DNA from: a bacterium
Lineage (GTDB): Bacteria; Patescibacteriota; Minisyncoccia; Phycocordibacterales; UBA918
Direction: 5' to 3'
DNA: 38,317 bases
Assembly: GCA_030430425.1 (NCBI GenBank)
Contig: JAUIFS010000003.1
Coordinates: forward strand, 1 to 38,317
Positions 2,108-13,143 of this stretch are shown here, piece after piece. A program made the position numbers and the translations under genes. Each line of letters opens with the position of its first letter. Positions within the stretch are counted from its first letter, which is position 1. The notes under the pieces are model-generated. The model was not told where the DNA came from and ran no database searches. It was given only the letters and a program-made list of their open reading frames with translations.

Positions 2108-2258
2108 GTGCCCCGGGAGGAATGATCCTGACGGTTTCTAAATTCGTCATACTTCCTCATTAAGAACCGCGGGACACGTCTCGCTTGTTCGTAAACTCAC
2201 ATCGCTCCGACGGTTCGATTCCTCAAAAGGTGCATTAGCACCTTTTTTCTGCGGGCAC
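2108..2258 (+). repeat. tRNA-end-mimicking structured element A1 (Arg type)
   Basis: The left end (GTGCCCCGGGAGGAAT) is an inverted copy of the 3' end of the nearby tRNA-Arg. The right end reads like a sense tRNA 3' end, GGTTCGATTCCTC, but a hairpin (AAAAGGTGC-atta-GCACCTTTT) is inserted before the acceptor-like CTGCGGGCAC. The ends pair: GTGCCC with GGGCAC and GAGGAAT with ATTCCTC. The middle holds further hairpins. It is followed by a terminator-like stem and then another inverted tRNA end. On the minus strand bases 2177-2108 can also close a 7-bp acceptor-like stem. Not a known family to me. Confidence 0.6.
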
Positions 2259-2260
2259 AA

Positions 2261-2295
2261 ACAAAAATGGCACACCGAGGAGTGCTCATTTTTGT
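2261..2295. terminator. Hairpin between two tRNA-end copies
   Basis: Stem ACAAAAATG-GCAC with GTGC-TCATTTTTGT and an eight-base loop. It separates the right end of element A1 from the inverted tRNA-Arg end that starts element A2, and its T-rich arms would terminate transcription from either side. Confidence 0.6.
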
Positions 2296-2299
2296 ACTC

Positions 2300-2460
2300 G
2301 TGCCCCCGGGAGGAATCGAAGCTTACTTTTAAACGATACGAGCAAAATGGAAATTTATTTACATTTTTGAGTGAGTGAAGAAAGAAATTTATTTACAGCT
2401 TCAGTACAGGTTGTCACCATTTTCTTTGGAAAATGCTAGGCAACCTTTTCGATTCCGTGG
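2300..2460 (+). repeat. tRNA-end-mimicking structured element A2 (Arg type, decayed right end)
   Basis: The left end (GTGCCCCCGGGAGGAATCGAA) is a precise inverted copy of the tRNA-Arg 3' end at 2509-2530. The right end CTTTTCGATTCC pairs with GGAATCGAAG, but the acceptor part is degenerate (GTGGACC) and no hairpin is inserted. Inside are a 14-base direct repeat GAAATTTATTTACA and a long hairpin GGTTGTCAC...GCTAGGCAACC. The segment 2333-2391 resembles, on the opposite strand, a motif at 36512-36577. Confidence 0.55.
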
Positions 2461-3022: not shown

Positions 3023-3085
3023 GTATCTCAGGACCTATAAATAGGAGTACAATAAAAGTAGATTACAAGATAATTTCACATATAT

Positions 3086-3325
3086 ATGGAATTAGTTTAT
3101 TTCGTGCTCGTTGGAGCAGCCGCTGGGTGGCTTGCGAGTATGCTCATGAATATCAATGCGAGCCTCGTACTGACAATCGTGCTCGGTATTGTAGGAGGTT
3201 TTGTTGGTGGATGGGGTCTGGGTCAACTGGGTGTTATGCTGCCGTGGGGAGTTGTAGGAGAAATTATTACCGCAGCAATCGGCGCGGTGGTACTTATCTT
3301 CCTCTATAAGTTGGTGACAAAGTAA
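3086..3325 (+). CDS. GlsB/YeaQ/YmgE-type small membrane protein
   Basis: The 79-residue protein is almost all membrane: three hydrophobic helices with the glycine patterns GAAAGWLAS, GIVGGFVGGWGLG and GEIITAAIGAVVL, matching the transglycosylase-associated/GlsB family in length and motif order. Family members are linked to general envelope stress but have no defined enzyme activity. A -10-like TACAAT lies about 30 bases upstream and a strong terminator follows the stop, so it is a single-gene unit. A longer overlapping frame at 3010 is a shadow. Confidence 0.85.
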   Translation: MELVYFVLVGAAAGWLASMLMNINASLVLTIVLGIVGGFVGGWGLGQLGVMLPWGVVGEIITAAIGAVVLIFLYKLVTK

Positions 3326-4093: not shown

Positions 4094-4141
4094 TGAGGGG
4101 AGGATGGTGGGTTTTTATAAAATAAAAAAAGTGCCTGCCCT

Positions 4142-4269
4142 CGATGAGAGACTTTCTCGTTACAGGACCGGTACACCTTTTGGGTATTTCTGTTCGTTCC
4201 TCCAGAAATTCCGCAAAAGCTTTTCAAGTCTCCCGTAACAGTGCCTTTGCACTGTTACTTCATCGCGCA
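4142..4269 (+). repeat. tRNA-end-mimicking structured element A3 (Val type)
   Basis: The left end CGATGAGAGACTT is an inverted copy of the tRNA-Val 3' end. The right end is a sense copy, TTCAAGTCTC then CATCGCGCA, interrupted by an inserted hairpin CGTAACAGTGC-cttt-GCACTGTTAC. Ends pair (GATG/CATC, GAGACTT/AAGTCTC). The middle has GTACACCTTTTGG ... CAAAAGCTTTTC enclosing a hairpin, and this frame is shared with element A4 near tRNA-His. Confidence 0.65.
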
Positions 4270-4315
4270 CAAAAAGAAAAACGCCCCGGAGGGCGTCTTC
4301 TTTTTGTGCGCGATG
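4261..4315. terminator. Long inverted repeat joining element A3 to tRNA-Val
   Basis: CATCGCGCACAAAAAGA on the left pairs with TCTTTTTGTGCGCGATG on the right, with an inner ACGCCC/GGGCGT stem and CGGA loop. The right arm is the 3' end of tRNA-Val itself. It is the probable terminator of the tRNA. Confidence 0.75.
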
Positions 4316-4379
4316 AGAGACTTGAACTCCCGACCTTCGCAGTGTAAATGCGCTGCTCTACCAACTGAGCTAATCGCGC
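4307..4379 (-). tRNA. tRNA-Val (anticodon TAC)
   Basis: A 73-base cloverleaf with acceptor GCGCGAT/ATCGCGC, D-arm GCTC/GAGC, anticodon loop TTTACAC (TAC), T-arm GGGAG-TTCAAGT-CTCTC and discriminator A. Position 27-43 is a mismatch. No CCA is encoded. A partial copy of its 5' end lies 120 bases upstream. Confidence 0.92.
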
Positions 4380-4475
4380 GTAGTGTGTAATGTCTTACAT
4401 ACTCGCTATTTGGTATAAATGTCGTTTGCGCATTCCCATGTGTAAATGGTTCAAAGATATCCCATACCTCCTCAC
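4380..4475. other. Spacer between tRNA-Val and its 5'-end remnant
   Basis: No gene. On the minus strand the sequence CCATTTACACATGG (about 4437-4450) looks like a short anticodon arm with loop TTTACAC, suggesting that the remnant at 4476-4498 once belonged to a longer tRNA-Val copy that has been scrambled. Confidence 0.35.
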
Positions 4476-4498
4476 CTCTACAACTGAGCTAATCGCGC
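4476..4498 (-). pseudogene. tRNA-Val 5'-end remnant
   Basis: GCGCGATTAGCTCAGTT-GTAGAG repeats the first two dozen bases of tRNA-Val with one base missing in the D-loop, then diverges. No matching 3' half follows at tRNA distance, so it cannot form a functional tRNA. Confidence 0.7.
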
Positions 4499-4616
4499 GA
4501 ACGATTATCTAAATACAAAATATCTGTATTCAGGTACGCAACATAGTATCGTTTTTTAAAAAAAAATCAATAGGTTTCATGGACGAATACATATTGCACG
4601 GTATACTACGTTCACT

Positions 4617-6510: not shown

Positions 6511-7170
6511 GTGGGAAAGCGTGGCCCAAAACCAAAGGGAAGGGTAGATACAATGTGGCGACCAGAGTTAGCATATGCACTGGGTCTCATTACTGCTGAC
6601 GGCTCTTTATCAAAAAATGGACGCCATATTGATTTCACTTCAAAGGATATTGCTCAATTAGAGACTTACAGAAGCTGCCTTGGGATAGAAGAGATAAAAA
6701 TTGGTTCTAAACGTAGTACGCACAAGAATAATGTTTTGTACTACAGAGTTCAGTTTGGTGACGTATTGTTTTATCAGTGGCTCGTAGACAGAGGTCTGTC
6801 ACCCAATAAGTCTAAAATAATACAAAAAGTTGATGTACCAGGTAAATACTTTTTTGATTTTGTACGCGGTGAATGGGATGGAGACGGAACAATATATTGT
6901 TCAGAAGATAAACGTTGGAAAAACAGCTATGTTGTTAGTATTGCTTTTGCAAGTGGAAGTTTGGAGTTTTTGCAATGGTTGCAAAAAGAAATTAATAGAA
7001 GAATTGGCACTACTGGACATATTCAAGAAAATGTACGAGCAATGCAGCTACGTTATGCGCGAAAAGATTCAAAAAAACTTTTTGATGCTATGTTTTATGA
7101 CGATGATCTACCACACCTCTCAAGAAAGTTTGCAAAAGCTGAAAAAATCTTTAAAATGACGGGACTCTGA
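6511..7170 (+). CDS. Free-standing LAGLIDADG homing endonuclease
   Basis: Two LAGLIDADG helices are visible: AYALGLITADG at residues 21-31 and FFDFVRGEWDGDG at about 114-126, each ending in the acidic metal-binding residue, so one chain should form the two-fold enzyme. The N-terminus MGKRGPKPKG is a basic AT-hook-like strip. Start is GTG; the extended -10 TGATATAGT (box 6499-6504) is six bases before it. No intron or intein surrounds it: the gene lies between the rplS terminator and tRNA-Leu, whose 5' end is only 11 bases past the stop. AT-rich codons (AAA, ATT) differ somewhat from neighbours, fitting transfer. It may also act as a repurposed DNA-binding protein. Confidence 0.85.
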   Translation: MGKRGPKPKGRVDTMWRPELAYALGLITADGSLSKNGRHIDFTSKDIAQLETYRSCLGIEEIKIGSKRSTHKNNVLYYRVQFGDVLFYQWLVDRGLSPNKSKIIQKVDVPGKYFFDFVRGEWDGDGTIYCSEDKRWKNSYVVSIAFASGSLEFLQWLQKEINRRIGTTGHIQENVRAMQLRYARKDSKKLFDAMFYDDDLPHLSRKFAKAEKIFKMTGL

Positions 7171-11139: not shown

Positions 11140-11262
11140 TCGGGGCGACGTCGTAGATTGAGAAAGTGCGGGGCACTTTTGCAAGAGGTTGCCAGCTGCG
11201 CCTGCAGCGACAACCTGAACAGTCTCTGTATAGAGATGTTCGAACTGTGTTTGAGTAATTAC
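11140..11262 (-). repeat. tRNA-His-end-like structured element (minus strand) with GGTTGTCGC hairpin
   Basis: On the minus strand it reads CAGTTCGAAC, then hairpins, then CTACGACGTCGCCCC, i.e. a T-loop-like part and a tRNA-His acceptor-like part separated by inserted structure. The strongest hairpin is GGTTG-TC-GCTGC-aggc-GCAGC-TGG-CAACC, closely similar to one at 17858-17890. It follows the toxin stop by seven bases. Confidence 0.5.
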
Positions 11263-12016: not shown

Positions 12017-12156
12017 GGGCGACTACCGGGGTAATCTTTCATTACATGAACTGTACACCTTTTGGCTAGATTGTTTCGCTATGCTCACAATCTATCTCAA
12101 AAGCTTTTCGATTCGCGCAACGCTTTTCAGAGAAAAGTTGCGCCCAGTAGTCGCCC
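12017..12156 (+). repeat. tRNA-end-mimicking structured element A4 (His type)
   Basis: Left end GGGCGACTAC pairs perfectly with right end GTAGTCGCCC; both match the tRNA-His acceptor (inverted and sense). Between TTTTCGATTC and the right end is an inserted hairpin GCGCAAC...GTTGCGC. The middle contains GTACACCTTTTGG, a CTAGATTGT/ACAATCTAT hairpin and CAAAAGCTTTTC, as in the Val-type element A3. Confidence 0.65.
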
Positions 12157-12796: not shown

Positions 12797-12869
12797 ACTA
12801 AAAGTATACCAGTTCTACCTTCTCGGTATGGTATCTAGAAAACCCTTATGATACTTACTTCAAAATGCT

Positions 12870-13034
12870 GGGCGGCTACTGGGAAGTTCGGTCACGAATC
12901 ACTAAGTATATTGGTTCGTCTTCGACTCCAAATCTACTAAGTGTTCTCGACCCCGACTCATTCGCGGCAAGGCCGCATCATTCCGTCTTTCGATTCCCGG
13001 ACAGAAGCAAAGCAGTTTGCTTCTTTAGCCGCCC
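12870..13034 (+). repeat. tRNA-end-mimicking structured element A5 (His type)
   Basis: Left end GGGCGGCTA pairs with right end TAGCCGCCC, and CTGGGAA with TTCCCGG; the right side TTCGATTCCCGG is followed by an inserted hairpin GAAGCAAA-gcag-TTTGCTTC. Compared with A4 one pair of the end stem has changed from A-T to G-C on both sides, a compensated change. Confidence 0.65.
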
Positions 13035-13039
13035 CATAC

Positions 13040-13066
13040 GCAAAAATCCCCGAAAGGGGATTTTGC
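13040..13066. terminator. Terminator behind tRNA-His
   Basis: GCAAAAATCCCC/GGGGATTTTGC with a GAAA loop, four bases beyond the tRNA-His 3' end. Confidence 0.8.
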
Positions 13067-13070
13067 TTTG

Positions 13071-13143
13071 GGCGACTACCGGGAATCGAACCCGAACTTC
13101 CGGTACCACAAACCGGAGCACTAACCGTTATACTATAGTCGCC
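13071..13143 (-). tRNA. tRNA-His (anticodon GTG)
   Basis: The extra 5' G and C73 that mark histidine tRNA are both encoded (GGCGACTA pairs with TAGTCGCC over eight base pairs). Anticodon arm CCGGT-TTGTGGT-ACCGG gives GTG; T-loop TTCGATT. Full CCA is not encoded. Several copies of its 3' end, in both orientations, occur in the 2 kb to its left. Confidence 0.95.

Follow-up and report, generated by a model that had tools for sequence, protein, structure and literature searches.

The window, by which we mean the whole 38,317-nucleotide stretch of DNA analysed, is contig C40 of genome G000, an assembly of 726 kb in 48 contigs. On its minus strand lies an intact tRNA-Val gene, downstream of which the 3' end of the tRNA (T) recurs once in inverted orientation (T') and once more in sense orientation (distal T), with a structured core between the two. 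Cores of the main type (type 1) were scored with a covariance model (CM), R1, built from seed cores. From upstream to downstream along the minus strand, the locus is composed as follows.

4524-4550, minus strand: presumed native tRNA-Val promoter, GATACTATGTTGCGTACCTGAATACAG, upstream of a broken tRNA-Val copy; resembles a motif upstream of the tRNA-Val of relatives
4475-4499, minus strand: relic of the tRNA-Val 5' end (positions 1-25), then GTGAGGAGG...
4440-4449, minus strand: anticodon-loop relic that belongs to this broken tRNA-Val copy, CCATTTACAC; from sequence
4306-4379, minus strand: tRNA-Val (tac), intact copy; ARAGORN, and Rfam RF00005 at 68.1 bits
4306-4326, minus strand: T, tRNA-Val positions 54-74, copied in both orientations downstream; from sequence
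4271-4305, minus strand: L, a terminator hairpin (palindrome) between T and T'; from the repeat listing
4260-4270, minus strand: first part of T', the inverted acceptor part of T, TCATCGCGCAC; 11 of 11 complementary
4235-4258, minus strand: hp1, a perfect 24-nt hairpin that splits T', GTAACAGTGCAAAGGCACTGTTAC; from sequence
4223-4232, minus strand: second part of T', the inverted T-arm part of T, 10 nt, TTCAAGTCTC, adjoining the core; perfect block
4156-4222, minus strand: type-1 core with two hairpins; CM R1 74.6 bits, rough E-value 3.3e-17, model match 4148-4232
4131-4154, minus strand: distal sense copy of T, AAGTCTCTCATCG, exact at 4142-4154; from sequence

At this locus T, L and T' together form a single long palindrome. 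An earlier note on this DNA had described inverted and sense copies of the tRNA-Val 3' end, with a hairpin inserted between two segments. We confirmed both copies, the inverted one as two perfect blocks and the sense one at 4142-4154, after which a 7-nt interruption is followed by GCAC at 4131-4134. The positions given in the note hold, and so does the place of the hairpin, which separates the T-arm and acceptor parts of T' at about the same tRNA coordinate as in the tRNA-His copy and the second tRNA-Arg copy. In many other copies the hp1 loop reads TGGGA, and the register of the second part of T' at the core boundary is fixed, with ...GAA on the T' side and (A/G)A(G/C)(G/C) on the other. The 5'-end copy that had been noticed upstream of the gene is likewise real and differs from the tRNA-Val 5' end by one deletion. 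What the earlier note did not contain is the core itself, a covarying structured segment between T' and distal T that is common to many loci.

Further elements lie elsewhere in the window.

2383-2457, minus strand: type-1 core of the element at tRNA-Arg (2507-2580); CM R1 58.0 bits, rough E-value 1.4e-12
2111-2320, minus strand: second tandem unit at tRNA-Arg; from anatomy
12868-13069, minus strand: element of tRNA-His (13070-13142) with terminator, hairpin-split T', type-2 core and distal T; from anatomy
12030-12115, minus strand: type-1 core whose arms, T' and T, are His-like; CM R1 63.4 bits
23260-23370, plus strand: type-1 element at the 3' end of rplK (L11); CM 31.1 bits
17795-17917, plus strand: tandem pair of type-1 cores that follows the gene for the large subunit of ribonucleotide reductase; CM
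11183-11237, plus strand: free-standing type-1 core behind a hairpin; CM R1 29.8 bits

The second unit at tRNA-Arg runs from a sense copy of T (2300-2320) through a hairpin, a hairpin-split T' (2212-2224 and beyond) and a type-2 core to a distal T at 2111-2123. At rplK the T segment lies within the last codons and the stop codon falls in the loop; T', the core and a decayed distal T follow.

Reading of the tRNA 3' flanks in G000 revealed the same layout behind most of them, with arms that fit the adjacent tRNA in each case, so that the architecture is indeed independent of tRNA identity, as had been proposed. To put numbers on this match we scored 241 tRNAs from G000 and related genomes, the relatives being named as Candidatus Kaiserbacteria, Vogelbacteria and other Patescibacteria. 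Copies of the tRNA's own 3' end were found in inverted orientation at 74 of these tRNAs, in sense orientation at 73 and in both at 32, compared to 3-7, 3-7 and 0-2, respectively, when each flank was searched with the 3' end of a different, randomly chosen tRNA, so that the copies are no product of chance. Many of the 241 loci had been chosen because they bear a core, and the random-tRNA control was run on the same loci. Three genomes were also scored on every tRNA found, without core-based selection and under a strict match rule; these gave 6-8 inverted matches against control means of 0.4-0.6, and 5-9 sense matches against 0.2-0.3. Both in G000 and in the relatives, then, the element ends track the adjacent tRNA. 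We also looked for relatives in which the same flanking sequence lacks a palindromic relation to the tRNA, and found that flanks either have the palindromic architecture or are unrelated and empty.

The register of T' and T at tRNA position 54 is fixed. T' stops at the complement of T54-C56, the distal copy starts at T54 or a few bases off, and 81 distal copies run through tRNA position 73. T' and distal T are 40-250 nt apart, and no ORF was found between them in any unit of the 241-tRNA set. Next to tRNAs the element is almost always oriented like the tRNA: a same-strand tRNA begins the upstream 500 nt or lies within it for 101 of the 140 distinct cores, and no core lies behind a tRNA on the opposite strand. 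Since the distal copies have partly diverged, it could be asked which copy T' resembles. Under a rule blind to the tRNA, T' fits the intact tRNA and not the distal relic at all 30 differing positions, and under a looser rule the count is 116 for the intact tRNA versus 2 for the distal copy. T' is therefore a copy of the working gene, or is held in step with it.

The core folds into two hairpins, helix B/C and helix D, the latter with a UGUAA loop, while pairing of T' with T closes a three-way junction. Among 112 distinct type-1 copies, 94.1% of pair cells hold standard pairs (70.4% in shuffles), two-sided changes occur at all 24 of the 24 pairs, and the covariation score is 0.578; shuffles score 0.164, and slid partners no more than 0.135. 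In helices B-D, G-T mismatches outnumber A-C mismatches by 59 to 18, a count that ignores shared ancestry; such an excess is expected if the sense strand is the one that folds. By eye, the hammerhead and other known ribozyme junctions were rejected as matches to the core, their junction lengths being unfit. In the window, the only gathering-threshold matches among 4227 Rfam families were tRNAs, and when 11 loci bearing elements of type 1 and type 2 were scanned permissively, only sub-threshold matches came up, mostly over tRNAs or palindromes; Rfam thus contains no family for the element.

The type-1 core is present in G000 in 42 CM matches at E ≤ 1, about 39 of them at E < 0.01 by these rough E-values, and a CM search found it in 36 of 40 relatives. 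Under stricter filters, 18 of 286 genomes sampled from the class match, mostly in the same order. Core types besides type 1 occupy the same T'/T frame. For type 2, the sequences of a first alignment diverged too far to yield a consensus fold, and a second gave a supported three-pair helix with strong covariation at one pair only; type 2 is therefore described here by its anatomy, and all CM counts concern type 1.

Several comparisons point to mobility. Within G000, near-identical cores sit at different loci between different T and T' sequences (Glu versus Ser-tga, 91%; Gln-ctg versus an ORF end, 90%). The orthologous tRNA-Val flank is empty in four relatives and carries type 1 in some others and type 2 in yet others; in one related pair, the same tRNA-Val site holds type 1 in G018 and type 2 in G019. 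This pair also differs in the presence of a flanking element at Thr-ggt, Arg-tct, Gln-ctg and Ser-gct, and at the filled Thr-ggt site a new terminator adjoins the tRNA while the native terminator lies beyond the insert. At the rplK 3' end, the element starts at the same codon in G000, G009 and G014 (type 1) and in G032 (type 2), in every case T' is complementary to the coding sequence beside it, and at least six further genomes have no element there. This recurrence at one codon could reflect an old resident element with repeated loss instead of repeated insertion. All genomes compared are assemblies of different species, with no strain-level pair among them, and in these between-species comparisons no transposition event within one species was seen.

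Broken tRNA copies provide a second view of the insertion site. At four loci (L123, L126, L129 and L133) a broken copy, interrupted at position 53/54, lies upstream of the intact one, and the order is tRNA positions 1-53, hp1 and core, the 3' strand of the T-arm, a short inverted copy and the intact tRNA. In relative G015 (L092), the insertion that corresponds to the tRNA-Val relic of the window still has an intact core. It interrupts a tRNA-Val copy near position 25, beside an intact tRNA, and this broken copy is preceded by a motif that resembles the tRNA-Val promoter. Copies of the 5' end similar to the tRNA-Val remnant occur upstream of other tRNAs too, and often begin at tRNA position 1. 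For the tRNA-Val gene of the window, the remnant at 4475-4499 most probably represents the 5' end that the gene had at first, displaced by a second, since-decayed insertion, because a promoter-like motif lies upstream of it, as upstream of the broken copy in G015, and because a relic of the anticodon loop accompanies it. The GATACTATGTTGCGTACCTGAATACAG motif at 4524-4550 is presumed to act as the tRNA-Val promoter. The working tRNA-Val is then most likely the duplicated copy, and the locus has been struck by insertions at least twice.

We favor, with a probability of roughly 55%, the reading that these units are non-autonomous mobile hairpin elements which insert in tRNA gene loops, duplicate one side of the target and acquire their inverted arm by fold-back copying. 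The mobile part would consist of the structured core and its companion hairpin hp1. It would enter mainly the T-loop at 53/54 and the D-arm near positions 18-27, and less often the 3' ends of protein genes. Duplication of one target side would leave one intact gene per insertion, since any other outcome would kill the tRNA; usually the 3' part would be duplicated, and more rarely the 5' part, with a broken copy left upstream. T' would be written anew at each site from the 3' end of the intact gene: the 3' end of T would fold back at L and be copied up to the insertion point, after which synthesis would run on into the core and onward into the second copy of T. Fold-back copying at L fits the data because the target duplication is one-sided and the inverted copy ends exactly at the insertion point. 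The form recognized would probably be the sense single strand, either RNA or ssDNA, T' would probably be the product of DNA synthesis, and some factor presumably acts in trans. Among the candidate domains, Y1 transposase, RVT_1 and LAGLIDADG_3 are each missing from several element-rich genomes, and none tracks copy number. A homing endonuclease was rejected as the driver: LAGLIDADG genes adjoin several tRNAs, the loci checked lack a flanking tRNA 5' copy, and element copy number does not follow these genes. A more tentative proposal is that the elements form a new class, in which a protein-free folded core enters the hairpin loops of genes that are transcribed, namely tRNA D-, anticodon and T-loops, and a fold-back arm makes one family locally complementary to any tRNA it enters.

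The strong covariation of the core could instead reflect a cellular function. The units would then be structured RNAs that form the 3' portion of transcripts from tRNA genes and certain protein genes, acting as processing signal, attenuator or antisense control, with T' pairing to the end of its own gene and the core plus distal T forming the competing structure. The bias to the sense strand, the tracking of the functional gene copy by T' and the age and wide occurrence of the element in one order would also suit such a role. We nevertheless consider it unlikely. Many tRNAs have no element, its presence varies between related species, and unrelated core types fill the same slot. Cores are found also in broken tRNA copies, in another core (Gly-tcc) and apparently in an ORF (L060), and pairing of T' with T would, if the unit were transcribed, unfold the tRNA.

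Movement of a different kind, in which target-primed reverse transcription places a copy of the core RNA in a nicked tRNA gene and leaves the variable duplications as its footprint, appears improbable to us. It would account for target duplications that are long and variable in length, for duplication ends that often fall near tRNA boundaries and for the excess of G-T over A-C, which suits RNA. However, RVT_1 is absent from G000 with its 42 copies and from G013, G015, G026, G033, G034 and G037, all of them copy-rich. Several duplications moreover extend beyond the tRNA, and the distal copies show no more than a mild enrichment of CCA (14 vs 5 of 81), so that mature tRNA is not an obvious template. 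An origin of the duplicated pieces from mature tRNA as cDNA is disfavored on the same grounds, as several 5' copies extend 5-12 nt further than the tRNA and the 3' copies mostly lack CCA.

Mobilization as for REP-like elements, by an IS200/IS605 (Y1, RAYT) transposase with folded single strands as its substrate, is highly improbable. Like REP and BIME sequences, the units are small, folded and non-autonomous, present in many copies, strand-asymmetric and inserted near hairpins. Unlike REP/BIME with RAYT, however, they have target-derived arms, and the Y1 domain is missing from G018, G019, G026, G033 and G035, which hold 8-27 copies each; in the core alignment no GTAG/CTAC tetranucleotide, as found at the foot of REP hairpins, stood out by inspection. 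We give as little weight to the idea that the units are attachment-site scars left by phages or by ordinary integrative elements that target tRNA genes. Their direct repeats of the tRNA 3' end to position 73/74 do resemble attL/attR, and the presence of this end on both sides (distal T at 73 of 241 tRNAs versus 3-7 in the control) recalls tyrosine-recombinase islands and casposons. Against this, one core serves all tRNA families and some protein-gene targets, no integrase or other gene lies within the 40-250 nt between T' and T, an inverted arm and a split hairpin are foreign to att sites, and the exact core consensus pattern was not found in IMG/VR viral contigs. It is equally hard to credit that nothing mobile is involved and that imperfect terminator palindromes were perfected by quasi-palindrome template switching: the T-L-T' palindrome around a terminator invites this view, and correction of this kind would hold T' matched to T, but it would not give rise to the distal T, to broken tRNA copies or to one conserved core found at some 42 loci. 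The core copies at about 42 loci and their covariation refute template switching as the sole cause, although it may help to maintain T'.

The favored reading, a mobile hairpin with a target-copied arm, also sets the family apart from other small repeats. Rickettsia palindromic elements (RPE) and their Wolbachia relatives are small palindromic non-autonomous repeats of reduced genomes, some of them within RNA genes or ORFs, and their arms are fixed. The present elements share with RPE the small size, the palindromic and non-autonomous character and the dispersal in a reduced bacterial genome; by description they differ in that every new target would itself provide the inverted arm, in that tRNA loops are the main target and in their host, Patescibacteria being a different phylum. 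Bacterial MITEs have fixed terminal inverted repeats and a short constant target duplication, whereas here the arms differ per locus in accordance with the local target and the duplications are long and variable. Integron attC sites are imperfect palindromes of which one strand folds and in which the fold seems to count for more than the sequence. Our elements are imperfect palindromes as well, probably with one strand folding, and their fold too seems to matter over sequence; unlike attC, they carry no cassette ORFs and use many tRNA genes as sites rather than one attI. By eye, the helix B consensus AGGTTG/CAACCT shows no obvious match to the attC boxes GTTRRRY/RYYYAAC.

Mitochondrial hairpin elements, the RHE of sponges (PMC2800124) and the GC clusters of yeast (PMC4478555), are described as short, mobile-looking and intergenic, with no encoded protein. 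Mitochondrial double-hairpin elements resemble ours in being dispersed and polymorphic and in having two adjacent hairpins (here B/C and D), a likeness of form only. The host is here bacterial and not organellar. To our knowledge, mitochondrial hairpin elements have neither a target-copied inverted arm nor a long one-sided target duplication. A search of the openly licensed literature returned no description of the element, and this hairpin element family of a small uncultured bacterium is apparently undescribed.

Genes for tRNAs are classic landing sites of mobile DNA, and each integrase known to us fits one or a few tRNAs; the present family is found in the 3' flanks of numerous tRNA genes of different kinds in a reduced Patescibacterial genome, with arms adapted to every one of them. 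Should this be confirmed, nature would here have documented fold-back copying in replicate, as one reaction repeated at dozens of different sequences, and the family would offer a direct test of how palindromes originate. It would also explain the messy tRNA flanks of Patescibacteria. Annotation is affected too, by broken tRNA copies and false T-arms beside intact genes.

A number of further observations were made at individual loci. At the tRNA-Gly-tcc flank (L006), a type-1 core with its own hairpin is apparently nested in a type-2-like core, and on contig C13 of G000 (L060, about 3058-3143) a type-1 core with a T-L-T' hairpin apparently lies inside an exonuclease-like ORF. A contig labelled Bacteroidales that carries a core (L152) is probably a mis-binned Patescibacterial contig. 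Free-standing cores at L052, L053 and L046 have a conserved 5' piece (GTGAG...hairpin...CGCAAGAGG) and lie directly upstream of protein genes; the same piece occurs in D-arm insertions of tRNA copies. ORFs of LAGLIDADG type abut or overlap the 5' ends of several tRNAs (Leu-gag, Asp, Ser-tga and Tyr; 6511-7170 in the window, and L120, L159, L236 and L239), and, lacking a flanking tRNA 5' copy, look like a separate tRNA-linked element. A third repeat (ATAAATTTCTTTCTTCACTCACTC...GTAA) apparently interrupts the UGUAA loop of helix D and is bordered by GTAA on either side, at about 2320-2400 in the window and also at the Tyr and Gln-ttg loci (L024, L025). Finally, at Thr-tgt (L001) and Ile-gat (L004) an inverted repeat, CCCTCA...TGAGGG, followed by a T-run encloses the tRNA, as if an extended acceptor stem served as the terminator hairpin.
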